From Candidatus Thorarchaeota archaeon (GTDB taxonomy: Archaea; Asgardarchaeota; Thorarchaeia; Thorarchaeales; Thorarchaeaceae): a stretch of DNA of 52,633 nt. A program made the translations under genes and the position numbers. Shown in pieces: positions 4,611-37,797 of the stretch (positions are counted from its first letter, which is position 1; every line of letters starts with the position of its first letter). The stretch lies in NCBI GenBank assembly GCA_018335335.1, contig JAGXKG010000004.1, forward strand, positions 37,037-89,669, written 5' to 3'. The notes beneath the pieces are model-generated. The model searched no databases. It had not been told where the DNA came from and worked only from the letters and a program-made list of their open reading frames with translations.

Positions 4611-5603
4611 ATGTACGTGAACAGAATCCTATCGATTTGGAGGCCTGGTATGTATCACGGCTCTCCCAGAATGAGTAACTACTTCGAGGGCTGGTACTTC
4701 AAACTGGTTGACCCGTCCGAAGAGACTATCTATGCGGTGATTCCAGGGGTCTCTTTCAGTAACGGTAGTGAACCGGATCACTCGTTTATACAAGTACTCA
4801 ACGGCAGGACTGTCGGATCACAGTATCATAGATTTGCTGTTGAGGATTTCAGGTATTCCAAGGTGGCTTTCGATATATCTGTTGGTAGGAATCGATTCAG
4901 TGCAGCCGGAATTTCGCTCGACTTGGGGGAGGACCAAAACAGGATTCAGGGGTTGCTTTCTTTTGGGGATTTAATTCCTTGGCCAGTTTCTCCCCTCTCT
5001 CCTGGCGCAATGGGTGTTTTCCAGTTTATTCCTCGTATGGAATGCTATCACGGTATTCTCGGCTTTGATCATAGAATTGAGGGTTCCCTCAATATTGGGG
5101 AATCAAACATTGATTTCACTAGTGGTCGTGGATATATCGAAAAGGACTGGGGAGCGGGCTTTCCAGAAGCCTGGATCTGGATGCAAAGCAACCACTTCCA
5201 AGAGAACGGTGTTTCTTTTACCTCTTCTATAGCCAAGATACCATGGCTCGGATCCAGCTTTGCTGGATTTCTTATCGGTCTGCTCTATGATGAAACTGTC
5301 TACACATTTGCTACGTATACCGGTGCACAAGTATCCAATCTGAGAGTCTCAGAAGACGAGGTTCGTTTCTGGGTTTCTGATAGCACTCATGGTGTTATGG
5401 TACGTGCTGCTCGTACTCAAGGGGGAGAGCTTTGCTCGCCGGTTCTAGGTGAGATGAGTGGACGGATTATCGAGAGCTTGACTGCTCATATTGACATTCG
5501 ATTTTACAGGTTTGAAGGAAATGAATCAACGCTGCTATTCTCAGGGACGGGTCGGAATGCAGGTCTTGAGGTTGTTGGCGACACCCGCGAACTCATCCCA
5601 TAG
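4611..5603 (+). CDS. Tocopherol-cyclase-like protein
   Basis: A 330-residue protein with the hallmarks of the tocopherol cyclase-like family: YFEGWYFK near residue 24, and GYIEKDWG followed by FP-WIWMQSNHF at about 178-198. In plants and cyanobacteria the family closes the chromanol ring of tocopherol; many prokaryotic members have unknown substrates. There is no signal peptide. The rest fits a beta-rich lipocalin-like barrel. No prenyl-quinone or phytyl-transferase gene is nearby, so tocopherol synthesis is not implied; a role with isoprenoid lipids or quinones is a guess. The start ATG at 4611 fits the family N-terminus; no strong ribosome site is seen. Confidence 0.75.
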   Translation: MYVNRILSIWRPGMYHGSPRMSNYFEGWYFKLVDPSEETIYAVIPGVSFSNGSEPDHSFIQVLNGRTVGSQYHRFAVEDFRYSKVAFDISVGRNRFSAAGISLDLGEDQNRIQGLLSFGDLIPWPVSPLSPGAMGVFQFIPRMECYHGILGFDHRIEGSLNIGESNIDFTSGRGYIEKDWGAGFPEAWIWMQSNHFQENGVSFTSSIAKIPWLGSSFAGFLIGLLYDETVYTFATYTGAQVSNLRVSEDEVRFWVSDSTHGVMVRAARTQGGELCSPVLGEMSGRIIESLTAHIDIRFYRFEGNESTLLFSGTGRNAGLEVVGDTRELIP

Positions 5604-5665: not shown

Positions 5666-5669
5666 GGAG
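5666..5669 (+). promoter_or_regulatory. Ribosome binding site deciding a TTG start
   Basis: GGAG lies eight bases before the TTG at 5678. It overlaps the in-frame GTG at 5669, so that GTG cannot use it. The TTG is therefore the better start of the oxidoreductase gene. Confidence 0.65.
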
Positions 5670-5677
5670 TGACTAGC

Positions 5678-7393
5678 TTGAAGAAGGGAATCTCCATCGT
5701 ACTATCAGGTGCAGCGGGCCAAGGAATAGCAACGGTTGAAGATTTTTTCGTTTCTATTTTGAAACGTTCCGGATACAATGTCTTTTCAACACGTGAGTTC
5801 ATGTCGCGTATCCGCGGCGGAACGAATTCAACACAAATTCGCGTGGGAGATGGCAATATCTATTCGTACTCAGAGCAATCGGATATAGTCATTCCCTTGA
5901 ACAAACGAGCACTCCCCCACCTGAGCAAATACGGGCGAATTAATGATTCCACACTTGTTGTTGGTGAAGCAGAAAACATCATCAGCGACGTACATCTCCC
6001 TGCGAATCAGATTCTTGAGGTACCATTCACGGCTATAGCGGAAGAAGTGGGTGGCAGAATCTACTCCAATACAGTTGCAGTTGGGCTCCTTGCAGCGGTT
6101 TTTGATGTCGATGAAGACATTGCAACAGACTACTTGACTGAGCGTTTCGAATCGAAGGGGGAAGACATTGTCAATGATAATATTGAGGCATACCGGCAAG
6201 GTCACGAAATCGGTGTATCGAAGCTTGTAGAACGCATGGATGCCATCGATGTTACTTCTGACGAGTCGGTAAGGGATCATATGCTGATCAACGGTGGTGA
6301 AGCTGTAGGTCTCGGGGCTATTGCAGGAGGCTGCAATTTCATCTCGTCTTATCCAATGTCGCCCTCAACAGCTGTTCTCGTCTTTCTGTCCAATCAATCT
6401 CAGGAATTTGGCATAGTCGTGGATCAAGCTGAGAGCGAGATATCTGCTATCAACAAGGGCCTAGGTGCTTGGTATGCTGGAAGCAGAGCGATGGTAACAA
6501 CCTCTGGTGGGGGTTTCGCGCTAATGGTAGAAGGCCTCAGTCTAGCTGGGATGATAGAAAGTCCTATGGTAATTCATCTTGCGCAGCGTCCTGGGCCCGC
6601 AACAGGCCTTCCAACCAGAACTGAACAGGGCGACCTTCTTTTTGCGCTCCGTGCTGGTCATGGCGAGTTTCCAAGAATCATATTAGCTCCAGGGACTTTC
6701 GAGGATGGATTCCACCTTACGCAGAAAGCTTTCAATTTAGCTGACGAATATCAAGTTCCCGTGATTGTACTAACAGATCAGTATCTCATGGATTCGCACG
6801 GTAACATTCCGGTGCTGGATCTTTCTGACATCTCGATTGAGAAACACGTCCAGAAAACAACTGGCGATTATACGCGCTACAAAATGACCGATAGCGGCGT
6901 TTCGCCTCGTGGAATTCCTGGATATGGCGATGGCCTTGTGGTTGCAGATAGTGATGAGCATGATGAAGCAGGTCACATAACGGAAGATTTGGACTTGCGA
7001 ATCGAGATGGTTGAAAAACGAATGAAGAAGAAACTGGAATTGCTTCGAGAAGCAGCTATCCCTCCAGAATACGTTGGTCCCGAAGAATACGATGCTCTCG
7101 TTGTTGCCTGGGGAACTAACTACAATGTTGTTGTGGAAGCACTTGAACGAGTGGGAAGAGATGATATTGGCTTCCTTCATTTCAAACAAGTATTTCCACT
7201 TCATAAGAGCGCCTTGAAGTACCTGGATGATGCGGATCGGCTGGCCTTGGTAGAAAACAGCTCTACCGCACAATTCGCCACAGTTCTTGCAAACGAGACT
7301 GGTTACAGAATCCCTGAAGAAAACCGCCTTTTGAAATACAACGGGTTACCCTTTTCTGTTGAAGAGGTTACGCGATTCTTGGAGGATTTCTAA
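5678..7393 (+). CDS. 2-oxoacid:ferredoxin oxidoreductase, gamma-alpha fusion
   Basis: A protein of about 571 residues. Residues about 1-190 are the gamma domain (a LSGAAGQG loop and SRIRGGTNS), and the rest is the alpha subunit with the YPMSPSTA motif (a variant of the usual YPITPSS) and the long pyrimidine-domain region. With the beta subunit next door it oxidatively decarboxylates a 2-oxoacid to acyl-CoA using thiamine diphosphate and reduces ferredoxin. The gamma-alpha fusion plus separate beta is the two-subunit layout known from aerobic and some anaerobic archaea. The exact substrate (pyruvate, 2-oxoglutarate, branched chain) cannot be called. The start is chosen from the ribosome site at 5666. 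Confidence 0.9.
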
Positions 7394-7399
7394 GGGAGG
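7394..7399 (+). promoter_or_regulatory. Ribosome binding site for the beta subunit
   Basis: GGGAGG directly follows the alpha stop codon and lies eight bases before ATG 7408. The ATG at 7402 would be only two bases away, so 7408 is preferred. Confidence 0.65.
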
Positions 7400-7407
7400 T
7401 TATGAAA

Positions 7408-8286
7408 ATGAAAGCAGACGATTTCGAAATTATGGATGAAGTTGATTACGATATTGCTTGGTGTCCTGGATGCGGCAACTTTGGAATACGAGAGGCTCTC
7501 AAAGATGCTTTGGCTGAGCTGGATATATCCCCACAAGAACTGGTCATGGTCTCAGGCATTGGCCAAGCTGCAAAGATTCCACATTATGTAAAAACAAACG
7601 TATTCAATGGACTGCACGGGCGATCACTTCCACTAGCCCTGGCAATCAAAGCATCAAATCCGAATCTCACAGTTATTGCTGAAAGTGGTGATGGTTGTAT
7701 GTATGGAGAGGGAGGTAACCATTTCACGCACACCATTCTACGTAATCCGAACATCGCTATGTTTGTGCATGATAACATGGTCTATGGATTAACCAAAGGG
7801 CAAGCTTCACCGACAAGCCAGAGGGGATTTGAAACTTCGTTGCAAACAGCAGACCGTGGTGGATGGACCAATACCCAGTTCAATCCACTTGCCCAAGCTC
7901 TTTCCTTGGGTGCGTCTTTTGTAGCACGAGCTTTCATTGGTGACCAAGAGGAAACAAAGGATTTGATGAAGAAAGCTCTCCGCCACAAAGGATTCGCATT
8001 GCTAGACATCTTGCAACCGTGTGTAACCTACAATGATGTCAACACATACAGGTGGTTCAGTAAGAATACCTACTATCTTGATGATGCCTATGATGTAACC
8101 GATCAGGTTGCAGCTTTCGAGACGGCAAAAGACATGAGTAAACTCGCACTTGGCGTGTTATACCGAGATACTTCAAAACCGACCTTTTCAGAGACATCCG
8201 GAGTATATGATGCAGATGACCGCCCCCTCTTCAAGCGGGAACTGGATAAAGAGAAGCTGGAATCTTTGATTGCTTCCATGAAATGA
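7408..8286 (+). CDS. 2-oxoacid:ferredoxin oxidoreductase, beta subunit
   Basis: A thiamine-diphosphate-binding beta subunit of about 292 residues. CPGCGNFG near the N-terminus supplies the conserved Cys pair for an Fe-S cluster. HGRSLPLA, then [14 protein letters not shown] and the downstream Asn in [13 protein letters not shown] form the ThDP/Mg2+ site. SPTSQRG follows. It is translated 14 bases after the gamma-alpha gene and is plainly co-transcribed. Together they are a complete enzyme apart from a delta-type ferredoxin, which this two-subunit type does not need. Confidence 0.92.
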
Positions 8287-8323: not shown

Positions 8324-9670
8324 CTACTCGTACTGTTCCCACGCTTTCTCAGGATCCTGCTGTAAACCATGACCCAGCAAGTCATCCAGATTAACCAAGA
8401 ATCCATTGAGCTTGGGGATATGCTTGGTAATCCAGTGGATTATCCGTAGCTGTACACCAGGTTCTCTGTTGTATGGACAGGAACGGATACAGTTGGAACA
8501 ATCACCTCCATTCTCAACCCAGAATTCGTAACAACTTTCCACATCTACATACCATTTGAATATCCCGGGATTGTTAGAGGGTGTTTCTCCGCTCCATGTT
8601 CTCTCAGGGCCATATGGAATCGATTGAGACGGGCAGTGCTCTGCGCATTTTTCACAAACCTCACAGAAGCGAATCACCGATTCACAAAACTCTGTATCCG
8701 GCTGATCTGTCTGAAGGGGCATGTCTGTTAGAACCTTACACAATCTGACCCGTGGACCGTACTCTTCCGTAATCAGCAATCCATGCCGACCATATTGTCC
8801 CAGTCCAGCGTCGATAGCCATCGGAACGCTTAATCCTACATCATTACCACAAGGAATGGCTCCATATCCTAACCTGTTGATGAATGCAGATAGTATAATC
8901 TCCACAAAGGCCATTTTGGAGTATCCTAGCACCGAGGCCGCGGAGCACGGCATGGCAGGAGACGTATTGATACCTTCATAGTCCATCTCAATAGCCATGA
9001 CTATCGCTGTATCGTATTCTTCAGGAATATCATATGGTTCCCCTTTCCTGTTGGTGCTATAGAGCCAGTTTCTATCAAGGTCTGTAACCCCCACGAGGTC
9101 AGCTCCAAAGAACTTTGCAGCTTTCTTGACAAACTCCGTAATTGCCTTCCAATTCCCGTGTATTTGTCCCCTCTCTTGTAAGGGTTGAGCAACTGCGGGT
9201 GTAATCGTATGTTTACTATCATACAGCTTCCAAGCAGCCATAACGAGCTCATGTTCTATTCTCGAATACCCTGGCAAATCCTTGCCAATCATCTCATGCG
9301 CTTTCGAGTAAACAGATTGCTTGTAACAGCTGAAGGATTCGTCATTAATCACACGTGCGAATATGTTGTCTTTCTCTGGAAAAGGGGTGTATTCATCTGA
9401 AACACTGTAGGGTGGTTTCTTATCTACAGGTTTCACATTATCTTCCGGTGTTTTCGTTCCTTTCTCTTTCTGTGAAAACTGTACGATTGCGTCCGTTGGG
9501 CAGGCACGTATACAGCTTAAGCACTTGGTACATTTCTGCTCATCAATGACCGGATAACCCGTCTTATTATCGAAGGTCAGGGGGGCAATGCTCGTATGGA
9601 TTCTTTTGCAAGCATCTACACACTCCAGATCACAGCTTTGCGGCTTGCATCTCTCTTCGTCTACATACAC
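8324..9670 (-). CDS. Reductive-dehalogenase-like protein with RLI-type ferredoxin head
   Basis: A 448-residue protein starting at GTG 9670. Residues 1-62 carry two cluster motifs: C8, C13, C17, C21 in the CKPQSCDLECVDAC pattern of the ABCE1/RLI N-terminus, then C47, C50, C53, C57 as a normal 4Fe-4S motif. Residues about 170-400 match the cobamide/iron-sulfur fold of reductive dehalogenases: MDYEGINTSPA, LGYSKM, IPCGNDVGLSVP, GLGQYGRHGLLIT, then two further cluster motifs (C336-C346 and C380, C391, C394, C398). There is no Tat signal and no RdhB membrane partner, so it should act in the cytoplasm. The substrate is unknown; cytoplasmic relatives need not be dehalogenases. Epoxyqueuosine reductase is a less good fit. 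It converges with the oxidoreductase beta gene. Confidence 0.75.
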   Translation of the reverse strand: MYVDEERCKPQSCDLECVDACKRIHTSIAPLTFDNKTGYPVIDEQKCTKCLSCIRACPTDAIVQFSQKEKGTKTPEDNVKPVDKKPPYSVSDEYTPFPEKDNIFARVINDESFSCYKQSVYSKAHEMIGKDLPGYSRIEHELVMAAWKLYDSKHTITPAVAQPLQERGQIHGNWKAITEFVKKAAKFFGADLVGVTDLDRNWLYSTNRKGEPYDIPEEYDTAIVMAIEMDYEGINTSPAMPCSAASVLGYSKMAFVEIILSAFINRLGYGAIPCGNDVGLSVPMAIDAGLGQYGRHGLLITEEYGPRVRLCKVLTDMPLQTDQPDTEFCESVIRFCEVCEKCAEHCPSQSIPYGPERTWSGETPSNNPGIFKWYVDVESCYEFWVENGGDCSNCIRSCPYNREPGVQLRIIHWITKHIPKLNGFLVNLDDLLGHGLQQDPEKAWEQYE

Positions 9671-9782: not shown

Positions 9783-10256
9783 CTATTCCGATGCTTTCCA
9801 TAGAATGCGGGGATAGAGGTCGATAAGAACCTGTGGCCAATCTCCAATTGAACGCAGGAAAAGATCTGCCTTCAATGCTACTCCGTCGTCGATTCTTAGC
9901 TCGTCTAGTTTTGGACATTCAAACAATGGTGAGATATCCACGCTTTCTAGTGGATTCATGTCTAGCGCAAGCTCGGTGAGGTTCTGGCAATCACTCAAAG
10001 GCGAAAGATCAATGCTCTTTATGAGATTATCAGAGAGACTTAGCATCTCCAACTTTTTGCACTTGCTTAAAGGCGATAAGTCCAATTCGGCTATTCTATT
10101 ATGACGGACACACAGTACTTCCAAGTTTTCAGCCCATACGAGCGGCAATAGGTCTATCTCTGCAATATCTCGAAGGTCCAAGTTCATGACCTCCTCGTCT
10201 GTGTCAAATTCTACCTTCTTGTCAATGCCTGCTGCCGTGGTATAGGCGATGAACAT
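9783..10256 (-). CDS. Leucine-rich repeat protein
   Basis: About 157 residues with three clear 24-residue repeats plus flanking partial ones. Each has the shape LEVLCVRHNRIAELDLSPL followed by a short polar turn and Cys, so L-x-x-L-x-L-x-x-N-x-I plus a DLSPL second half. This is an LRR solenoid of the kind used for protein binding. There is no signal peptide or membrane segment. ATG 10256 is preferred to the in-frame TTG at 10265. The partner and function are unknown; it is next to the PAS gene but divergent from it. Confidence 0.8.
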   Translation of the reverse strand: MFIAYTTAAGIDKKVEFDTDEEVMNLDLRDIAEIDLLPLVWAENLEVLCVRHNRIAELDLSPLSKCKKLEMLSLSDNLIKSIDLSPLSDCQNLTELALDMNPLESVDISPLFECPKLDELRIDDGVALKADLFLRSIGDWPQVLIDLYPRILWKASE

Positions 10257-10455
10257 ATCCGCCAAGACTTGGAGACCTCCGTTATCAACGCTTCCTGATG
10301 CGGCGTTACAGATTCATATGCATGTTCACTTAAAACTCAACCTCTCTCAAATCCTACCGGAATTGTAGCGTCTGTTTCGTTTTCCATAGATTAAGCAAAA
10401 CCCTCATATCTATACACGGCTATTCGATAGAGTTGAAATAAGGAGATGAATCATT

Positions 10456-10974: not shown

Positions 10975-11316
10975 GTGACGATAGATTCCGATTACCGTAA
11001 AACGTGGCGTGTGACACACCGCCAATACAATTGTGATGTCTGGCAACACCCTGAAGACGGTAGTGTGATTTATGGTACGCGTGTGGGAATTCACCAGACT
11101 TCTTGTACATTTTGTATGAAGTGTATCGATGTCTGTCCCACTGACGTTTTTGAATACTATCCGGAGTCTGAAGAATCTCGAGTAGTTGTTCCCATTAGGC
11201 AGAATGATTGCATAGAGTGCTTGGCCTGTGAAATGGTTTGTCCTACAGACGCGATTTCAGTTGAATCCCGCGCGGGTTCGGAATCGACCCTCAAGGCTTT
11301 ATTGGATGGTGAATAA
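10975..11316 (+). CDS. Ferredoxin, two 4Fe-4S clusters
   Basis: 113 residues starting at GTG. A basic N-terminal extension of some 40 residues is followed by two classic motifs, CTFCMKCIDVCP and CIECLACEMVCP, so two [4Fe-4S] clusters. It ends 26 bases before the acyl-CoA dehydrogenase gene and is probably co-transcribed with it. This pairing resembles FixX-like ferredoxins that serve acyl-CoA oxidation, and no ETF genes are in the window. The direct electron partner is inferred from position only. Confidence 0.85.
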   Translation: MTIDSDYRKTWRVTHRQYNCDVWQHPEDGSVIYGTRVGIHQTSCTFCMKCIDVCPTDVFEYYPESEESRVVVPIRQNDCIECLACEMVCPTDAISVESRAGSESTLKALLDGE

Positions 11317-11342
11317 CAGGTCAGGTCGAGAGGCTGAGCTGG

Positions 11343-12614
11343 TTGTTTGATGTTATACTCACAGACGAGGAGAAAGCTGTAAGAAACGAAGTGCGTGAAT
11401 TTGTTCGAGATCAGGTTGACAGGTCACTCATACTTGCCATGGATTCAAAGGAGAAGGAATATCCGTATGAGTTTATTGGGGCCGCTGGAAAGGCGAATTT
11501 GCTTGGTCTTCGTTTCCCTGACGAATATGGTGGAAGGGGTCTCGGTTGGACAAGTGAGCTCGTTGCCTTGGAAGAGGTAGGAGTCCTTGGGATTGCTCTA
11601 GGATGTGCTTATTCTTTACCTTCTATCGTAGGAGAATCTCTGGATAAGTTTGGTACCGAGGCTCAGAAAGAGGAGTATCTTGCACCAACATTGAAGGGAG
11701 ATAAGATCTGTGCAGAAGGCCTTACTGAACCTCGAAGTGGTTCAGACTTTTTTGGCACTATAACTACCGCTGTTAGAAACGAAGATGGTTTCCTGCTTAA
11801 TGGCGAGAAGAGATTCGTAGCCGGCGGTGTTGGAGCTGACTACTTCTTGATTTACGCGAAAACAGATTTCGAAGCACACCCTCACAAGTCCCTTAGTGCA
11901 TTTATTGTTGATCGAGATTCTGGGATAGAAGTTAACGAAGAATATGAGCTCATGGGCTGTAGGGGTATGGGTGCAGCACGAATTACTATGCGAGATGTTC
12001 AGATTCCTGCTGAGAATCTTATTGGTGATCTCAATGATGGTGCTGCTGTTTTCAATGCCATGATGGTTCCTGAAAGGCTAACATCTGCAGCCGGTCCCAT
12101 CGGTATGGGTCGTGCAGCTCTTGAGATAGCAGTACGCTACGCTGACAAGCGTGAAGCCTTTGGAAGAGCATTAAGGAAATTCGAAGGAATATCCTTCAAA
12201 ATTGCAGATTGTGCCACCAAATTAGATGCCGCTCGGGGTTTAGTATATCGCGCAGGGAAAGTGGCAGATACTGGTCAATGGTGCAGAAAGGAGGTATCCA
12301 TGGCAAAGGCGTTTGCAACTGAAGCCGGATTGGAAGCAGTGGATGAATCAATGCAGATTCTTGGCGGTATCGGCTACACTGATGTATATCCAATTGAGCG
12401 CCTCTTTCGTGATGCCCGTCTGGCCACTATCTGGACCGGTAGCAACGAGGTTCAGAGACTCATAATTCAGAATGAAGTCGTGAAAGAAGTGCTCTCTGAA
12501 GATGCTTCTAAGAAACGAAACATCGAAATGGATACACCAGGCGCTCACAAAGAAGAAGAGAAGGTATTCACGGAAGATCCACAGAAATACTATCCATCCG
12601 ATATGCGAGACTGA
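11343..12614 (+). CDS. Acyl-CoA dehydrogenase
   Basis: A 423-residue FAD enzyme, standard length plus a charged 35-residue tail. Signature segments are EGLTEPRSGSDFFG, the RGMGAARI loop, FGRALRKFEGISFKIAD and QILGGIGYTDVYPIERLFRD. At the usual catalytic-Glu position near the C-terminus (YEG in medium-chain enzymes) it has T365 (IWTGSNEV). However, E244 in VPERL matches the catalytic Glu of isovaleryl-CoA and long-chain dehydrogenases. The enzyme should therefore be active, with the base on the other helix. It desaturates an acyl-CoA at C2-C3; the adjacent ferredoxin is a likely acceptor or mediator. It starts with TTG. Confidence 0.92.
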   Translation: MFDVILTDEEKAVRNEVREFVRDQVDRSLILAMDSKEKEYPYEFIGAAGKANLLGLRFPDEYGGRGLGWTSELVALEEVGVLGIALGCAYSLPSIVGESLDKFGTEAQKEEYLAPTLKGDKICAEGLTEPRSGSDFFGTITTAVRNEDGFLLNGEKRFVAGGVGADYFLIYAKTDFEAHPHKSLSAFIVDRDSGIEVNEEYELMGCRGMGAARITMRDVQIPAENLIGDLNDGAAVFNAMMVPERLTSAAGPIGMGRAALEIAVRYADKREAFGRALRKFEGISFKIADCATKLDAARGLVYRAGKVADTGQWCRKEVSMAKAFATEAGLEAVDESMQILGGIGYTDVYPIERLFRDARLATIWTGSNEVQRLIIQNEVVKEVLSEDASKKRNIEMDTPGAHKEEEKVFTEDPQKYYPSDMRD

Positions 12615-29986: not shown

Positions 29987-30949
29987 TCACCAGCGAATAC
30001 CGAACTGTATCAGAATTATCTGTAGCACAGCAATTGGAATTGCATATTTCCACATGCCCTCTTCCATCTGTTCTATTCGTAATCGAGCAAAAGATGCTCG
30101 CAAAACTGACAGTAGAACAACCACGAAGATTGTCTTAAGGAGAAAGCTGATTATGGGCGGGAGAAACAAGATTGGTTGAGGTCCTCCAAGATAAAGAGCT
30201 GCCGCTAGAGCTGATACCAGAACAACCTCTAGGTTCTTTCCTAATCGGATGAGAGCAAGCTTTCTACCACTGTATTCTGTCTTCCATCCTGCCACAATTT
30301 CTGTTTTAGCGTGTGGAATATCAAAGGGGATGAATTCCAATTCTGCAAGTAGAGAAACAATCAGGATACTAAAGCCGATTGGTTGTAGGAATATGAACCA
30401 CATTGAGTTGTTCAACTGCCATTGCGCGATATTGCTAATGGAAAGACTTCCAGCAACAAGTGCCGGCCCAATCATTGCTAACCCCATCGGGATTTCATAT
30501 CCCACCATCTGAAGTGCAGCACGAGCACTCCCTATGGTAGAGAATCTGTTCATTGAGGAATAGCCACCGAGAAAAATCACAATCATGATGAGTGTGAACA
30601 TGAACATCATGATTAGCAAGTCCCCTTCAAACGAAATGATGCTGGTTGATCCTGAAATTGGAACAAGGAAAAGTGCAGTAAGCGGAATCGCAAAGAATGC
30701 TATTGGGGCCAAACCGAAAATACGGCTATCAGCTGCATCCGGAGTTAAGTCTTCTTTCTGCAACAACTTGAGGAAATCGGCGAATGGTTGCAGGATACCT
30801 TTTGGACCTGTGTGTAGTGGACCAATCCGTTTTTGAACACTTGCGACTGCTTTTCGATCTATCCATTCGTAGAAGAATGCTAATAGGATTACGAAAAGGA
30901 TTCCCGGAAAAACGAAGATTTGAATCGCTGAGATGATTTCATTAATCAT
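29987..30949 (-). CDS. Group 4 hydrogenase/complex-I-type subunit H
   Basis: 320 residues, eight helices. Family landmarks are EWIDRKAVASVQKRIGP, GILQPFADFLKLLQKED, YEIPMGLAMIGP and FIPFDIPHAKTEIVAGW. In complex I this subunit joins the hydrophilic arm to the membrane arm and forms the quinone-chamber entrance; in Ech/Mbh hydrogenases the homologue anchors the small and large subunits. GGAG ten bases upstream of ATG 30949. Confidence 0.92.
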   Translation of the reverse strand: MINEIISAIQIFVFPGILFVILLAFFYEWIDRKAVASVQKRIGPLHTGPKGILQPFADFLKLLQKEDLTPDAADSRIFGLAPIAFFAIPLTALFLVPISGSTSIISFEGDLLIMMFMFTLIMIVIFLGGYSSMNRFSTIGSARAALQMVGYEIPMGLAMIGPALVAGSLSISNIAQWQLNNSMWFIFLQPIGFSILIVSLLAELEFIPFDIPHAKTEIVAGWKTEYSGRKLALIRLGKNLEVVLVSALAAALYLGGPQPILFLPPIISFLLKTIFVVVLLSVLRASFARLRIEQMEEGMWKYAIPIAVLQIILIQFGIRW

Positions 30950-30956
30950 TCTTGAC

Positions 30957-31430
30957 TTACTCCTCGATTTTTGGAGGCGTTTCAGGTTCCTTGTTTTTGT
31001 GAGTTTGTTTTCCTTGCTTCAATTTCGCAAGCAATTTCGTAACGCCATCAATTATTGCTTCAGGTTTTGGTGGGCAGCCTGGTACGTATGCATCTACAGG
31101 AATCACGTGGTCGACCCCTCCACAAACGCTGTAACACCCTTGGAATGGTGCACCACTACTGGCACACGTTCCAACTGCCACTACGAATTTGGGCTCAGCC
31201 ATCTGTTCATAGATGCGCTTCAGCCGTTTTTCATTCTGTAGTGTAACAGGTCCAGTTACAACCAAGATATCTGCATGTCGAGGACTTCCTTTCAATACGC
31301 CCCCGAATCTCTCGAGATCGAAACTCGGCATAAGAGCGGCTACTATTTCAATGTCACAGCCGTTACAACCACCACTTGGAAAATGTAACAACCAAGGACT
31401 AGATACTTGAGCCCATTGCAAAATACCCAT
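30957..31430 (-). CDS. Group 4 [NiFe]-hydrogenase small subunit (B-type)
   Basis: About 157 residues. The proximal 4Fe-4S cluster ligands are in FPSGGCNGCDIEIV, GTCASSGAPF and YVPGCPPKPEAI. CNGCD is the form of group 4 hydrogenase small subunits (EchC, MbhJ); complex I NuoB has adjacent Cys-Cys. The start is taken at ATG 31430, one base after the A stop and ten bases from GGAG; the in-frame TTG at 31439 is too close to that site. The Lys/Pro-rich tail is unusual but short. Confidence 0.9.
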   Translation of the reverse strand: MGILQWAQVSSPWLLHFPSGGCNGCDIEIVAALMPSFDLERFGGVLKGSPRHADILVVTGPVTLQNEKRLKRIYEQMAEPKFVVAVGTCASSGAPFQGCYSVCGGVDHVIPVDAYVPGCPPKPEAIIDGVTKLLAKLKQGKQTHKNKEPETPPKIEE

Positions 31431-31431
31431 T

Positions 31432-31767
31432 CTAGGCAACTCTCCTATAGAATACCAACAGCCAGCTGGCCGCCAACAAAACCATCGAATAGATGATTGG
31501 TACCAATCCAGCTGCAGGTGATGATGTAGCCAGCATGAATATCAAAACATCGAAGATTAGCAAGTAAATTGCATAGACCAAGAAGTGTTCAATATCTATC
31601 TGCAATTCTTCTCTCGGAAAATCCTCTCCGCAAGCATACAGCTCCCCTTTTGCCCCGCTATCTTTAGACGAGACTTTGACTGATATTTTTCCGCTGTACC
31701 AGTAAATGATCAGGGCCACAACAATAGATATACCGAAGATAACGGGCAGTAATATGAGGGTCGACAT
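31432..31767 (-). CDS. Complex-I-type subunit A in hydrogenase cluster
   Basis: About 111 residues, three helices. LYACGEDFPREE followed by HFLVYAIYLLIFDVLIFML matches the NuoA/FpoA loop with its Cys and acidic pair and the second helix. In complex I this loop borders the active site and takes part in coupling. A-type subunits are usual in complex I and Fpo but not in Ech, Mbh or Hyc hydrogenases. GGGTG six bases before ATG 31767 fixes the start. Confidence 0.85.
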   Translation of the reverse strand: MSTLILLPVIFGISIVVALIIYWYSGKISVKVSSKDSGAKGELYACGEDFPREELQIDIEHFLVYAIYLLIFDVLIFMLATSSPAAGLVPIIYSMVLLAASWLLVFYRRVA

Positions 31768-31797
31768 TCTATGCACCCTGTTTGAGAACAAATTCAA

Positions 31798-31953
31798 TGG
31801 TATCTTTAAGCTTGCGGTCCGGAAGTTCTATGAATCCCTGAAAAGGCTTAGTATTTATTTGATTTTACTTTCGATTGAAAAGTCGGTTTTGAGAAGATTT
31901 TTATTCTACTGCTAGGCCTGCCGAATTAGCGGTTAGTAACGCAGGAGTTTGCC
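31798..31953. promoter_or_regulatory. Divergent promoter of the two main hydrogenase units
   Basis: Between the A-B-H-I unit (minus) and the J-K-N-L-M unit (plus). AT-rich TATA candidates are TTTTTATTC at about 31899-31907 for the plus unit and, on the minus strand, AAATAAATACTAAG at about 31848-31862. AGGAG at 31943-31947 is six bases before the TTG start of the plus unit. One control region could set both units. Confidence 0.45.
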
Positions 31954-32208
31954 TTGGCATTAATGGATATCCCCCTCATCATCTTAATGATTCTAGCTTT
32001 GGGATTTGCATTGTCAACGGTGGAGACAAGAGACCCCCTCTACAGCATTCTTTCCTTTTGTGGAATGTGCATTACAATTGGTAGCATATTCTGGATTCTG
32101 GCAGCTCCATATGTCGCTATCTTTCAGTTGCTAGTTTACGCAGGAGCTGTTGTGGGGATTTTCCTTGCTGCTATTATGTTGACAACGCGAAAGGAGTGCA
32201 TTGAGTAA
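31954..32208 (+). CDS. Hydrogenase subunit J, N-terminal half (MbhD-like)
   Basis: 84 residues, three helices. ETRDPLYSILSF and APYVAIFQLLVYAGAVVG match the first part of NuoJ, whose pi-bulge helix relays conformational change. J is split into two genes here, as in Mbh/Mrp-type systems. TTG start supported by AGGAG; the ATG four codons in is an alternative. The last base of its stop codon is the first base of the next start codon. Confidence 0.82.
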   Translation: MALMDIPLIILMILALGFALSTVETRDPLYSILSFCGMCITIGSIFWILAAPYVAIFQLLVYAGAVVGIFLAAIMLTTRKECIE

Positions 32209-32495
32209 TGAAATATGATAAAATACAGATTGCGGGCTCAATAGTTGCATTGCTGGCAATTATAATTTTGGGCATATTCTTGATTCAAATCCCCTTCCCC
32301 GCCTTCGAATATGCAATCGCTGATGATCATCTGGTTGAGATTACTCAGCCACTGGGTGAGGAAATGAGCGAATTCATGTGGGGGTTCAGAAGTATTGATT
32401 TGTTGGGTCAAGCATTCGTTCTGTTTAGCACCGCTGCAGGATCCCTTGCAGTTCTAATCGGGATAGAACACATGGACGAGGGAGAAACCGAATGA
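32208..32495 (+). CDS. Hydrogenase subunit J, C-terminal half (MbhE-like)
   Basis: 95 residues with a first helix, an extracytoplasmic loop and a second helix containing FRSIDLLGQAFVLFSTAAG, the signature of the Mrp/Mbh segment that continues NuoJ. It overlaps both neighbours by one to four bases, which signals translational coupling. Confidence 0.78.
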   Translation: MKYDKIQIAGSIVALLAIIILGIFLIQIPFPAFEYAIADDHLVEITQPLGEEMSEFMWGFRSIDLLGQAFVLFSTAAGSLAVLIGIEHMDEGETE

Positions 32496-32806
32496 TTCCA
32501 CTGACATATTTCCTTGCCTTTTCAGCAGGATTGTACATCATCGGTATATACTGCTTGATATCCAAACGCAATTTGATTCGACTGGTCCTAGCAATTGAAA
32601 TCCTGTTGAATGCTGCCAATGTCAATTTCATAGCTCTTTCATTGTTTTGGAATGAGGGGTTTGTGGATCCGTTTGCCCAGACCTTAGTGGTGATTTCAAT
32701 AACCTTGGCTGGTTGTGTGAGCGCTGCAGCCCTTTCACTTGTAATCTATGCTTACGAACACTATGGAACATTGAATGCACGAGAGCTCAGGAGGCTTCGA
32801 AAGTAG
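32492..32806 (+). CDS. Hydrogenase subunit K (NuoK/MrpC-like)
   Basis: 104 residues, three helices. SKRNLIRLVLAIEILLNAAN carries the conserved first Glu (E36). The second Glu of NuoK is not there: the corresponding helix reads TLAGCVSAAALSL, which with DPFAQTLVV is closer to MrpC/MbhG. It forms part of the ion path between the H/A/J region and the antiporter-type subunits. Confidence 0.88.
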   Translation: MIPLTYFLAFSAGLYIIGIYCLISKRNLIRLVLAIEILLNAANVNFIALSLFWNEGFVDPFAQTLVVISITLAGCVSAAALSLVIYAYEHYGTLNARELRRLRK

Positions 32807-34261
32807 ATGCTGACTCTACCACTCAACATACTATTCATATTCGCAGTGACAACTCCCGCGGTTGGCTATCTGGGAAACAAATACGGTTACAGGAACCTGT
32901 GTGGAGTATATGCTTTGATAGGTGTCTTTCTTGCTGGGTATGCGGTCTATGATCTTTACTTGGTAGCCTCGGGAGGGGTGTATGTATTCCCATCTGATTT
33001 TACACGCCTTTTTGCACATTTCAGAATCGATACGCTTGGCTTTTTCATGGCATTCATTCAGGTTGGCCTAGGTCTCCTTGCCACATTGTATTCTATTAGA
33101 TATATGGAAGAAAAATGGCCTACTCCACTCTATTACTCCTCGTTATTGGCAATGATAGGCGGAATGATGGGGGTAGTATTTGCTGCTGATTTGTTCACTC
33201 TTTTCGTTTTCTGGGAGCTTATGTGCATTAGTTCCTATATGCTTGTAGCATTCGATAGGGAGTGGGAGCCAATTGAGGCCGGGTTGAAATATCTCCTCAT
33301 GAGTGCCGCAGGATCAGCGACTTTTCTTTATGGTATTTCTCTCATCTACGGTTTTGCTGGCTCTCTAGACTTCGTTACCCTTGCGTCAACTCTGGGTCAA
33401 GCCCCAATTAATAGGTGGTTCAATTTCACCTATTTGCTCATTTTTGTTGGCCTTGGTATTAAAGCCGCAGTCGTTCCTCTGCATACTTGGTTGCCTGATG
33501 CTCACTCTGCGGCGCCAACTCCGATATCCGCAATGCTCTCCGGTATTGTTATTGAAACTGGCCTTTATGCCATGTTTCGAGTTTCCTACACTGCCTTGGC
33601 CTCTATCCATGTAGAGTGGATGCTAATCTTGGCTGTCTTCAGCATTATTACCATGACTCTTGGCAATCTATCAGCTCTTCTTCAGAAAGATTTGAAGAGA
33701 TTGCTAGCATATTCCAGTATTGCACATATTGGATACATGTTAGTTGGGCTATCCATTGGCACCGAACTGGCCTTAACAGGTTCTTTTCTACATATCTTCA
33801 ATCATGCGCTGATGAAGGGTACAGCTTTTCTTTGTACTGGTGCGATTCTTTACCGCTTGGGAACCAGGGATTTGGACAAGATAGGTGGCGTTGGAAGGAA
33901 GATGCCTATCACAGCTATTGCCTTTGGGGTTTCCTTACTTGCCCTATCTGGCCTACCAGGTCTCAACGGATTTGTAAGTGAATTGACCCTCGTCCTTTCA
34001 ACCCTTGAAGAGGGCTTCTTATGGCTCGGTATTGCAGTAATCCTCAATACAGCCATATCGGCAGGATACTACCTACGAATCTTCCGTACAATGATGCAGT
34101 CGCCACCAACCGAGTTAGCTGAGGAAGCTGAAGAGGCGCCTGTGAGTATGCTGGTACCTATCTGTCTGCTAGCCACATTCATTGTAGTTTTTGGTATTTG
34201 GCCTGACATAGTGCTCGATTTGGCGAGACAAGCTGCACAGGGACTTCTGGGCCTAATTTAA
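32807..34261 (+). CDS. Antiporter-type subunit N (NuoN/MrpD-like)
   Basis: 484 residues, about 14 helices. The TM5 Glu is intact (E137 in FVFWELM). GIKAAVVPLHTWLPDAHS gives the TM7 Lys, and QKDLKRLLAYSSIAHIGYM a Lys in the second half. Likely one of three ion-translocating channels of the complex. It starts at the base after the K stop codon. Confidence 0.9.
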   Translation: MLTLPLNILFIFAVTTPAVGYLGNKYGYRNLCGVYALIGVFLAGYAVYDLYLVASGGVYVFPSDFTRLFAHFRIDTLGFFMAFIQVGLGLLATLYSIRYMEEKWPTPLYYSSLLAMIGGMMGVVFAADLFTLFVFWELMCISSYMLVAFDREWEPIEAGLKYLLMSAAGSATFLYGISLIYGFAGSLDFVTLASTLGQAPINRWFNFTYLLIFVGLGIKAAVVPLHTWLPDAHSAAPTPISAMLSGIVIETGLYAMFRVSYTALASIHVEWMLILAVFSIITMTLGNLSALLQKDLKRLLAYSSIAHIGYMLVGLSIGTELALTGSFLHIFNHALMKGTAFLCTGAILYRLGTRDLDKIGGVGRKMPITAIAFGVSLLALSGLPGLNGFVSELTLVLSTLEEGFLWLGIAVILNTAISAGYYLRIFRTMMQSPPTELAEEAEEAPVSMLVPICLLATFIVVFGIWPDIVLDLARQAAQGLLGLI

Positions 34262-34275
34262 CGGAGAGATAACAA

Positions 34276-36309
34276 ATGCTAATTGATATCAATATACTCG
34301 CTTGGTTTACTTGGATATTCCCGCTAGTAGGTGCAGGTATCTCTCTGCTCCTATCCAAAAAGAATGATCGATTTAGCGCCTATGGGACTGTGTTATTCGG
34401 GTTCTTGGGATTCCTCATGGCATTTCTGATGCTTCCAGAGGTTTTCCATCCTGAAGCTATCAATACTACGGCATTTTGGGTAACTTTGCCCGGCGGTATA
34501 TCTGTGTCTATAGGTATGCTCGTTGATCCACTTACAATTATCTTGGCCAATATTGTGAGTTTTCTGGCCTTCCTCATACTTGTTTACTCTGTCAAATATG
34601 TTGAACACGAACCAGGAAAAACAAGATACTGGTTCTTCATGTCTCTATTCATTGGCAGCATGCTACTGCTTGTGATGGCGGACAACTTGATTCTCCTATT
34701 CGTGGGCTGGAAGATGGTTGGCGTATGCAGTTATGCACTTATCGGCCATTACTACAGCGACGAAAAAGAACATTGGATTGGAGGTCCAGAGCCGTTTTCT
34801 TTCCAGAAGCCTTCACGGGCGGGACTGAAAGCTCTACTGGTTACGACCTTCGGAGACGTTTCGCTTCTTGGCGGAATGATTCTCATCTACATGTATTCGG
34901 GAACATTCAACTTCATTCAGCTCTATGAGACGGTTTCCACTTGGGTTCCTGCTATGGCGGCTGATCCCGGAGTACTGACGCTTGCATCTGTTCTGGTTCT
35001 TGGTGGTCCAATTGCAAAATCGGCCCAATTCCCCCTCCATGAATGGTTGCCTGAAGCCATGGCGGGTCCAACCCCTGTATCCGCATTGATACACGCAGCA
35101 ACAATGGTGAAGGCTGGCGTGTATTTCGTTGCTCGAATGGCACCAATCTTCTTCTACGGTTATTGGATTGGTGGTTTCTCTGAAGCTGGAACCTTCTTCT
35201 TGATTACAGCAGCAGTTGGAGGTTTCACTGCTTTTCTAACTGGCACTCAAGCCATGGTGGCTCTTGAACTGAAAAAGGTACTCGCCTTCTCAACCATGAG
35301 CCAAATCGGGTATATGATTCTTGGTCTGGGTGTGGCAGGTTTGAGCCCCGAAGCACTTACTGGTGGCCTTACAGCAGGCATTTTTCATCTTGTAAGTCAT
35401 GGTATTTTCAAGGCAGCATTATTCCTTACTGCCGGTTTCATTCTTCACGCTACAGGCACAATCTATATGTCTGAAATGAATCTTTCACGAACCCGGACGA
35501 AACTGACTTGGGCAGCTATGTGGATAGTAACACTGTCCTTAATGGGGGTTCCACCGCTATCAGGATTCTGGAGTAAAGAAGAAATTCTGACTGTCTGTCT
35601 TGACGGCGGTCATTTCATTCTGTTTGCATTTGCATTATCAACAGTCGCAATCACAGCGTTCTACTCGGTTCGATTTATGGGAATGGTATTCCATGGTCCC
35701 CAAGAGGAGAGCTCTTCTCATCACGAGGCTGACCGAATAATGCTCACTCCCTATGCTCTTCTTGCGATTCTTACATTGGGGCTTGGGATAATCGGTCCTT
35801 GGTTTGGTGAAGGACTGCATCACATATTCGAGGAGTATTTTGTTCACACACTCGGATTCGAAGTGGTTGCAGAATCCACAGCTATAGCCCCATCAATGGC
35901 TCTTTCTGAAACAATACCCTTCTTGATACCCATTCTTTCAATCTCGATGCTCGCTCTTGGAGCACTTCCTGCTTACAGGTTGTATGTTTCAAGAAAGAGT
36001 AATCCAAAAGATATCGTTGGCGAGGAAGGTGTCCTGAAGAAACTACATTCTTTCCTCTGGAACCGTTGGTACATCAACGCAGCATACTTGGCGATAGTTG
36101 ACGGAATAATGGCTATGCGAGAACCACTGAAGAAGTATGTTGAACGACCCATTGATCGAGCTTTGAATGACGGTATTCCTAATCTCTTCTCTGCGATAAG
36201 TAATAAGGTGAGGAAAATCCAAACAGGAAACTTCTCAATCAATATGCTCTATGTATTCGCTTTCTTGGTACTGGCTGGAATCGTACTCCTATTTACGGGG
36301 GTGCCCTGA
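34276..36309 (+). CDS. Antiporter-type subunit L (NuoL-like) with Lys at TM5
   Basis: 677 residues including the long C-terminal lateral helix and final anchor typical of NuoL. Landmarks are SAQFPLHEWLPEAMAGPTPV with the TM7 Lys, and LELKKVLAFSTMSQIGYM. At the key TM5 position (GWE in NuoL) the protein has K146 in LLFVGWKMVGVCSY; the codon AAG is at 34711-34713. Glu here is nearly universal in the family, so this subunit may not pump in the usual way. It starts 14 bases after N. Confidence 0.92.
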   Translation: MLIDINILAWFTWIFPLVGAGISLLLSKKNDRFSAYGTVLFGFLGFLMAFLMLPEVFHPEAINTTAFWVTLPGGISVSIGMLVDPLTIILANIVSFLAFLILVYSVKYVEHEPGKTRYWFFMSLFIGSMLLLVMADNLILLFVGWKMVGVCSYALIGHYYSDEKEHWIGGPEPFSFQKPSRAGLKALLVTTFGDVSLLGGMILIYMYSGTFNFIQLYETVSTWVPAMAADPGVLTLASVLVLGGPIAKSAQFPLHEWLPEAMAGPTPVSALIHAATMVKAGVYFVARMAPIFFYGYWIGGFSEAGTFFLITAAVGGFTAFLTGTQAMVALELKKVLAFSTMSQIGYMILGLGVAGLSPEALTGGLTAGIFHLVSHGIFKAALFLTAGFILHATGTIYMSEMNLSRTRTKLTWAAMWIVTLSLMGVPPLSGFWSKEEILTVCLDGGHFILFAFALSTVAITAFYSVRFMGMVFHGPQEESSSHHEADRIMLTPYALLAILTLGLGIIGPWFGEGLHHIFEEYFVHTLGFEVVAESTAIAPSMALSETIPFLIPILSISMLALGALPAYRLYVSRKSNPKDIVGEEGVLKKLHSFLWNRWYINAAYLAIVDGIMAMREPLKKYVERPIDRALNDGIPNLFSAISNKVRKIQTGNFSINMLYVFAFLVLAGIVLLFTGVP

Positions 36310-37797
36310 ATGGAGATTCCATTCTTACTGCTTCAGACGGTACTCATTCCAGCAGTCTCTGTACCGATTATGGGATTACTTGGCAAGAAAATAGGCAAAC
36401 AAGTCGGCTGGGTTGTAACCGCAGTTCTAGCATACACAACCTTTCTCCTGCTCCTTGGAGGTGTAGATTACTGGGTCAGTGGATCTGCACTCAGTGAGCA
36501 GTATTTCTGGAGCACAGCACTCTTCGACATCGAGTTCGGATTCTTGGCTGATGGTCTCAGCTATCCTGTTGCCGTCATCATGAATATACTATCAATGACG
36601 CTTGCTGTGTATTCCATTCGATATGTTGAACATGCCATTGAGGAGCTCTATGGTGATGGGAATGAAGGCATGAATGGGCTTTACTATGGGCTTTTCATGT
36701 TCTTCCCGACCGGACTTGTGGGAATGTCATTAGCAACGAACCTGGTTGAAATCTACTTATTCCTCGACGTTTTGCTGATTCCTCTCTACTTCATCATAAG
36801 CTATTTTGGACTCATAAAGCGACATCGAATTGCAACCATGGTCTTCCTATGGGGCTTCATAGGCGGTTCACTCTTTCTCATAGGTTCAGTAATGGTATAC
36901 TCACAGATTGGGAGCCTCATGATTAGAGATTTACCAGCTCTCGCAGGGTCGCCTCTAGCGTTCTGGGCAGCGATATTCATGCTCGTAGGGATTCTCACGA
37001 AGATGGCTGCATTCGGTTTTCATGTGTGGCTACCTTGGGTGCATTCAGGGGCTCCAACACCAGTATCTGGTATATTGACTGTCGTTGTCGGTATCATGAG
37101 CTACTTGCTAGGTAGGATATTTGTCCAGAATCTGGCAACTGTTATCCAAGCGCTGTCAACACCACTCATGATTTGGGCATTGATTACTATGCTCTACGGT
37201 GGTCTGCTAACCCTTGCTCAGGATGATATCAAACGTCTGTATGCTTGTTCGACAATAAGCCAGACTGCATACTCCCTCCTGGGATTGGCAACTCTTACGA
37301 CTACGGGAGCCGCTGGAGGTGTATTCTACTTCCTTAGCCATTCCCTCGGCAAGGTCATACTATTCTCTGCCGCTGGGATGGTGATGATCAAGACCGATGT
37401 TAGAGACATCAACAAGATGGGAGGACTTGCGAAGAAGATGCCACTTACGGCGACCCTTTGTGTGATGGGTTCGCTAATTCTATCTGCGATTCCACCATTC
37501 AGTGGTTTGCAAGCGGAATGGATTATGTTCATCGGTATTTTTGAACAAGGTGTCGCTGCAGGCACCCTTCTCAACATAGCAATACCGGTAGCTGGGATAT
37601 TCATCACCTTCATTTCCAGTGTCTATACTTTCTGGCCGGTGATGAGGATATTCTTCGGTCCCCTGCCTAAATCACTAGAAGATGTTGAAGAAGCACCACT
37701 ATCAATGATTGGACCGACTGCGATTCTTGCTCTGATTTCCTTCTTGTTTGGTATCTACCCCGAGTTGGTCATGCGGTTCTTATCGGCCGCGTTCTAA
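36310..37797 (+). CDS. Antiporter-type subunit M (NuoM-like) with Asp at TM5
   Basis: 495 residues, 14 helices. GILTKMAAFGFHVWLPWVHS holds the TM7 Lys and DDIKRLYACSTISQTAYS a later Lys. The TM5 motif FWE-x-x-L-x-P is here LFLDVLLIPLY, with D153 in place of Glu, a conservative change. Abuts the L stop directly. Last gene of the unit, followed by a terminator. Confidence 0.9.
   Translation: MEIPFLLLQTVLIPAVSVPIMGLLGKKIGKQVGWVVTAVLAYTTFLLLLGGVDYWVSGSALSEQYFWSTALFDIEFGFLADGLSYPVAVIMNILSMTLAVYSIRYVEHAIEELYGDGNEGMNGLYYGLFMFFPTGLVGMSLATNLVEIYLFLDVLLIPLYFIISYFGLIKRHRIATMVFLWGFIGGSLFLIGSVMVYSQIGSLMIRDLPALAGSPLAFWAAIFMLVGILTKMAAFGFHVWLPWVHSGAPTPVSGILTVVVGIMSYLLGRIFVQNLATVIQALSTPLMIWALITMLYGGLLTLAQDDIKRLYACSTISQTAYSLLGLATLTTTGAAGGVFYFLSHSLGKVILFSAAGMVMIKTDVRDINKMGGLAKKMPLTATLCVMGSLILSAIPPFSGLQAEWIMFIGIFEQGVAAGTLLNIAIPVAGIFITFISSVYTFWPVMRIFFGPLPKSLEDVEEAPLSMIGPTAILALISFLFGIYPELVMRFLSAAF

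Follow-up and report, generated by a model that had tools for sequence, protein, structure and literature searches.

An RdhA-family core carrying an RLI/ABCE1-type two-cluster head in Thorarchaeota and other Asgard archaea

Among the reductive dehalogenases (RdhAs), PceA of Sulfurospirillum multivorans (4UQU) belongs to the respiratory class, which is exported through Tat and partnered by RdhB; PceA is headless. The catabolic cytoplasmic enzymes NpRdhA and JtRdhA have no Tat signal and use a soluble electron donor, which in JtRdhA is a fused module, a C-terminal FMN/2Fe-2S reductase; NAD(P)H-driven RdhAs with such a C-terminal reductase domain are the precedent for fused electron modules (PMC10463259). 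The cobalamin-binding domain is duplicated in both NpRdhA and JtRdhA. Reductive dehalogenases of Asgard archaea, including Hermodarchaeota (PMC8163825), have been taken as evidence that these organisms respire organohalides. Manoharan et al. (2019) described thorarchaeotal enzymes that lack Tat and RdhB, keep the PceA active-site residues and carry an extra N-terminal 4Fe-4S domain absent from proven reductive dehalogenases; they recorded this head as one pfam00037 domain, present in Thorarchaeota but not in the other lineage they studied (PMC6737245). A further point of comparison is the N-terminal Fe-S domain of ABCE1/RLI (PF04068 plus Fer4), which sits on twin ATPase domains. This domain is needed for ABCE function, and its clusters are described as diamagnetic [4Fe-4S]2+ (PMC6088178).

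The window analyzed here is a stretch of 52,633 nucleotides from a Candidatus Thorarchaeota archaeon. An earlier interpretation made from the letters of this DNA (the sequence-only reading) had described an open reading frame with a Cys-rich head and an RdhA-type core holding two more cluster motifs, and the gene has this composition (Table 1). Its eight head and eight core cysteines fit four 4Fe-4S sites, in line with the up to four clusters proposed at the time. The protein shares with the enzymes of Manoharan et al. (PMC6737245) the reductive dehalogenase core, the N-terminal 4Fe-4S domain, the lack of Tat and of a nearby RdhB and the PceA Tyr, Asn and Arg, but its head is an eight-Cys RLI-type two-cluster domain and not a single pfam00037 domain, and four or more Asgard families besides Thorarchaeota have such heads. 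That standard RdhAs lack such a head has been in print for Thorarchaeota since 2019, where it was noted as an extra pfam00037 domain absent from proven reductive dehalogenases (PMC6737245). The fusion itself is not new. What this analysis adds is that the head is of the RLI type, with eight Cys, and that further Asgard families have it too. We found no mention of a relation between the thorarchaeotal head and RLI in the literature searched.

Table 1. Features of the RdhA gene and its upstream neighbor (window positions).
Feature	Position	Strand	Basis or remark
Whole gene: RLI-type ferredoxin head fused to RdhA core	8324..9670	(-)	448 aa, GTG start
N-terminal two-cluster RLI/ABCE1-type head, 8 Cys, residues 1-63	9482..9670	(-)	NF009945, hhalign, Cys conservation
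Head motif CX4CX3CX3C, Cys 8, 13, 17, 21	9608..9649	(-)	
Head motif CX2CX2CX3C, Cys 47, 50, 53, 57	9500..9532	(-)	
Linker, residues 64-90	9401..9481	(-)	Residues 66-83 predicted disordered, AlphaFold2 pLDDT <50
RdhA-type corrinoid/2[4Fe-4S] core, residues 91-448	8327..9400	(-)	TIGR02486, Foldseek to PceA
Tyr250, aligned with PceA catalytic Tyr246	8921..8923	(-)	
Asn276, aligned with PceA Asn272	8843..8845	(-)	
Arg309, aligned with PceA Arg305	8744..8746	(-)	
Core cluster motif CX2CX2CX3C, C336/339/342/346	8633..8665	(-)	
Core cluster motif CX10CX2CX3C, C380/391/394/398	8477..8533	(-)	
LRR protein, upstream and codirectional	9783..10265	(-)	Homologue adjoins RdhA gene in 4/16 clustered regions; association

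The core belongs to the RdhA family. It scored 205 bits against the NCBIfam reductive dehalogenase model TIGR02486 (cut-off 160.35), and it is the only gene in the genome above this cut-off, whereas the Pfam Dehalogenase model PF13486 stayed below its threshold on the window's copy (13.7 bits, cut-off 24.3). A sequence search of the PDB returned 8q4h (E 4.7e-55) and PceA (E 2.6e-54) far ahead of the epoxyqueuosine reductase QueG (E 1.2e-05). Most of the core is confident in the AlphaFold2 model, and using Foldseek with this model we obtained the same order, with 8q4h at E 3.9e-30, PceA at ~1e-25 (TM ~0.61) and QueG at ~1e-7 (TM ~0.33). The core thus shares with PceA the fold, two 4Fe-4S motifs and the active-site Tyr, Asn and Arg, at an identity of ~30% in the model comparison. 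In an alignment of 28 sequences, Tyr250 and Asn276 are invariant and Arg309 nearly so; seven of the eight core cysteines are likewise invariant and the eighth, C346, nearly invariant. It is very improbable that the gene encodes QueG or another non-RdhA relative: the two families belong to a common superfamily, which shows in weak matches to sequence and structure, but the QueG model TIGR00276 reached only 57.1 bits against a cut-off of 200 and the structural agreement is far poorer than with PceA. The better match to QueG that the sequence-only reading had allowed for did not come true, and its RdhA assignment stands. Among plasmid records, we found distant RdhAs only, none spanning 80% of the query.

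Among Fe-S models of NCBIfam, the head was matched best by the RLI model NF009945 (36.4 bits over residues 3–63; next model, 26.9 bits). All eight of its cysteines are invariant in 12 of 12 thorarchaeotal copies, and their spacing is therefore not a product of chance. With hhalign, a profile of the collected heads aligned to Asgard ABCE1 heads (probability 99.4%); the 63 gap-free columns are 40% identical, and the Cys spacing is the same. Against an ABCE1 profile, the window's head scored 47 bits, compared with 3 for the neighboring ferredoxin, 9 for the dicluster of the core and 29 for the C-terminal dicluster of IOR, which, together with the top rank of the RLI model, weakens the option, also raised in the sequence-only reading, that the head matches ordinary Fer4 only. 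The separation is incomplete, in that some heads scored as low as 24 bits, under the 29 of IOR. Because of these few heads, and because the ABCE1 profile was built from four sequences only, the assignment to RLI holds well for the family as a whole but is weaker for any individual protein. The RLI/ABCE1-style head proposed earlier is accordingly upheld by its Cys spacing and its best NCBIfam model. PF04068 remained below the Pfam cut-off of 23 in the window's copy (15.4–16.5 bits); an orthologue in genome G009 (24.6 bits) and the head in G088 (31.5 bits) exceeded it. Elsewhere in the compared genomes, PF04068 occurred in ABCE1-sized frames and in short proteins of ~180–200 aa. Matches resembling PF04068 but below the cut-off were also observed in frames of ~792–799 aa in three genomes (G039, G045 and G050), a further possible RLI-type architecture.

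A survey of the fusion in Asgard genomes, as suggested in the sequence-only reading, located the head in five Asgard families. In Thorarchaeota, the family of the window, it is present in all full-length copies examined, and the headless copies of this family are truncated at contig ends or interrupted by frame breaks. Full-length copies from four more families (f9, f13, f15 and f18, the last with n = 4) possess it as well. In the copies read, of which a few are cut by contig ends, the head was not seen in families f2, f11, f20, f22, f27 and f28, in some f9 copies, or in relatives from Bipolaricaulota, Chloroflexota, Nitrospinota, Bathyarchaeota and Borrarchaeota. The best tree of the core places the presence of the head at two changes, and a single clade of headed copies was not rejected (p-AU 0.398). 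In-frame stops were noted inside three RdhA orthologues, L012 (G028), L014 (G011) and L025 (G030); they may reflect sequencing error, a pseudogene or recoding.

The gene has neither the Tat signal nor the adjacent RdhB partner of the respiratory RdhA class. We found no RR-x-F motif in the open reading frame, which extends only 8 aa upstream in frame, and within the window no RdhB-like small ORF with two or three transmembrane (TM) segments lies near the gene, both as the sequence-only reading had stated. The only small ORFs of this kind in the window lie at 31.4–32.8 kb, inside a complex-I-like cluster. This cluster, a membrane oxidoreductase at 29990–37794, comprises NADHdh and 20-kDa subunits on the (-) strand, and small TM ORFs and three antiporter-like subunits on the (+) strand.

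The genes around the window's copy encode Kor, PAS, ferredoxin and acyl-CoA dehydrogenase proteins, and most of them are common to its own genus only. Genes for the alpha and beta subunits of a 2-oxoacid:acceptor oxidoreductase (5669–8286) are convergent with the RdhA gene; among the regions compared, they adjoin it in the same genus only. A two-cluster ferredoxin gene adjoins the acyl-CoA dehydrogenase gene at 10975–12614, and this pair also flanks RdhA in loci L013 and L014; the pair and an LRR gene each recur in a few other Thorarchaeota. Neighbors in the other headed families, judged by eye, are unrelated and mostly housekeeping. No conserved redox partner adjoins the gene beyond small groups of genera. 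With neighbors that are genus-limited or unrelated elsewhere, the context names neither substrate nor partner. Separately, the frame at 4611–5603 matches the tocopherol-cyclase family (PF14249) at 68.6 bits (cut-off 26.6), here in an Asgard archaeon.

On balance, we lean towards a cytoplasmic RdhA-family reductase that would depend on corrinoid and 4Fe-4S clusters and most likely acts as a dehalogenase; its tethered head would serve as a low-potential electron entry. The core would bind a base-off cobamide and two 4Fe-4S clusters. CobS was not found in the genome, so that the cobamide would need to be imported or salvaged; CbiM and three genes for B12-binding domains score above their cut-offs, a combination that suits cobamide salvage. 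The RLI/ABCE1-type two-cluster head, standing where respiratory enzymes have the Tat signal and RdhB, may collect low-potential electrons from a soluble ferredoxin or from a ferredoxin-reducing enzyme such as a 2-oxoacid:ferredoxin oxidoreductase. Electrons would then pass from the head through the core clusters to the Co(II)/Co(I) couple, and the substrate would most likely be a small halogenated organic compound. In its soluble donor and lack of Tat, such an enzyme would resemble NpRdhA and JtRdhA, with the difference from JtRdhA that the fused module is an N-terminal 2[4Fe-4S] domain.

The main doubt concerns conduction of electrons by the head, because the ABCE1 clusters are described as diamagnetic in the 2+ state, and descent from RLI alone does not imply electron transfer. 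We can only infer the "built-in electron wire" of the sequence-only reading, because the head is modeled at a confidence too low to yield cluster-to-cluster distances (pLDDT ~57, both in the full AlphaFold2 model and for the head alone). The head could instead have a structural or docking role like that of RLI in ABCE1; its clusters would then remain in the 2+ state, and the core would receive electrons directly from a separate donor. Such a role would follow the precedent of ABCE1, where the domain acts in ribosome recycling instead of redox catalysis (PMC6088178); it also agrees with headless sister Asgard RdhAs that have the same core, and with a linker predicted to be disordered and the lack of a confident predicted docked pose. 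The simplest account of four 4Fe-4S sites in a single reductase chain is, however, a relay, and full-length copies of five families keep the head; we regard a purely structural head as rather unlikely.

The doubt about the substrate is of another kind. An RdhA-fold corrinoid reductase acting on a non-halogenated substrate, or a protein with a corrinoid-handling role, would account for the identity of only ~30% to PceA and for a setting without a dehalogenation gene cluster. A stand-alone gene kept in many Asgard genomes also fits housekeeping better than occasional use of organohalides. Retention of the PceA Tyr, Asn and Arg, and a score 45 bits above the reductive dehalogenase cut-off, speak against this assignment, to which we give a fairly low probability. 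More tentatively, and with some reservation, the headed proteins may form a distinct Asgard class of cytoplasmic RdhAs, in which an RLI-type two-cluster domain was captured once and became a low-potential electron port; the outcome would be either a non-respiratory dehalogenase driven by ferredoxin or a corrinoid reductase with a new function.

For the Asgard lineages in which reductive dehalogenases have been taken as a sign of organohalide respiration, a tethered RLI-type head without Tat and without RdhB points instead to a soluble enzyme that is fed by ferredoxin and has no part in respiration. Should the head carry current, an RLI domain would be in use for redox catalysis and not for ribosome recycling, and the protein would be a self-contained, anaerobic equivalent of the fused dehalogenases that run on NAD(P)H.
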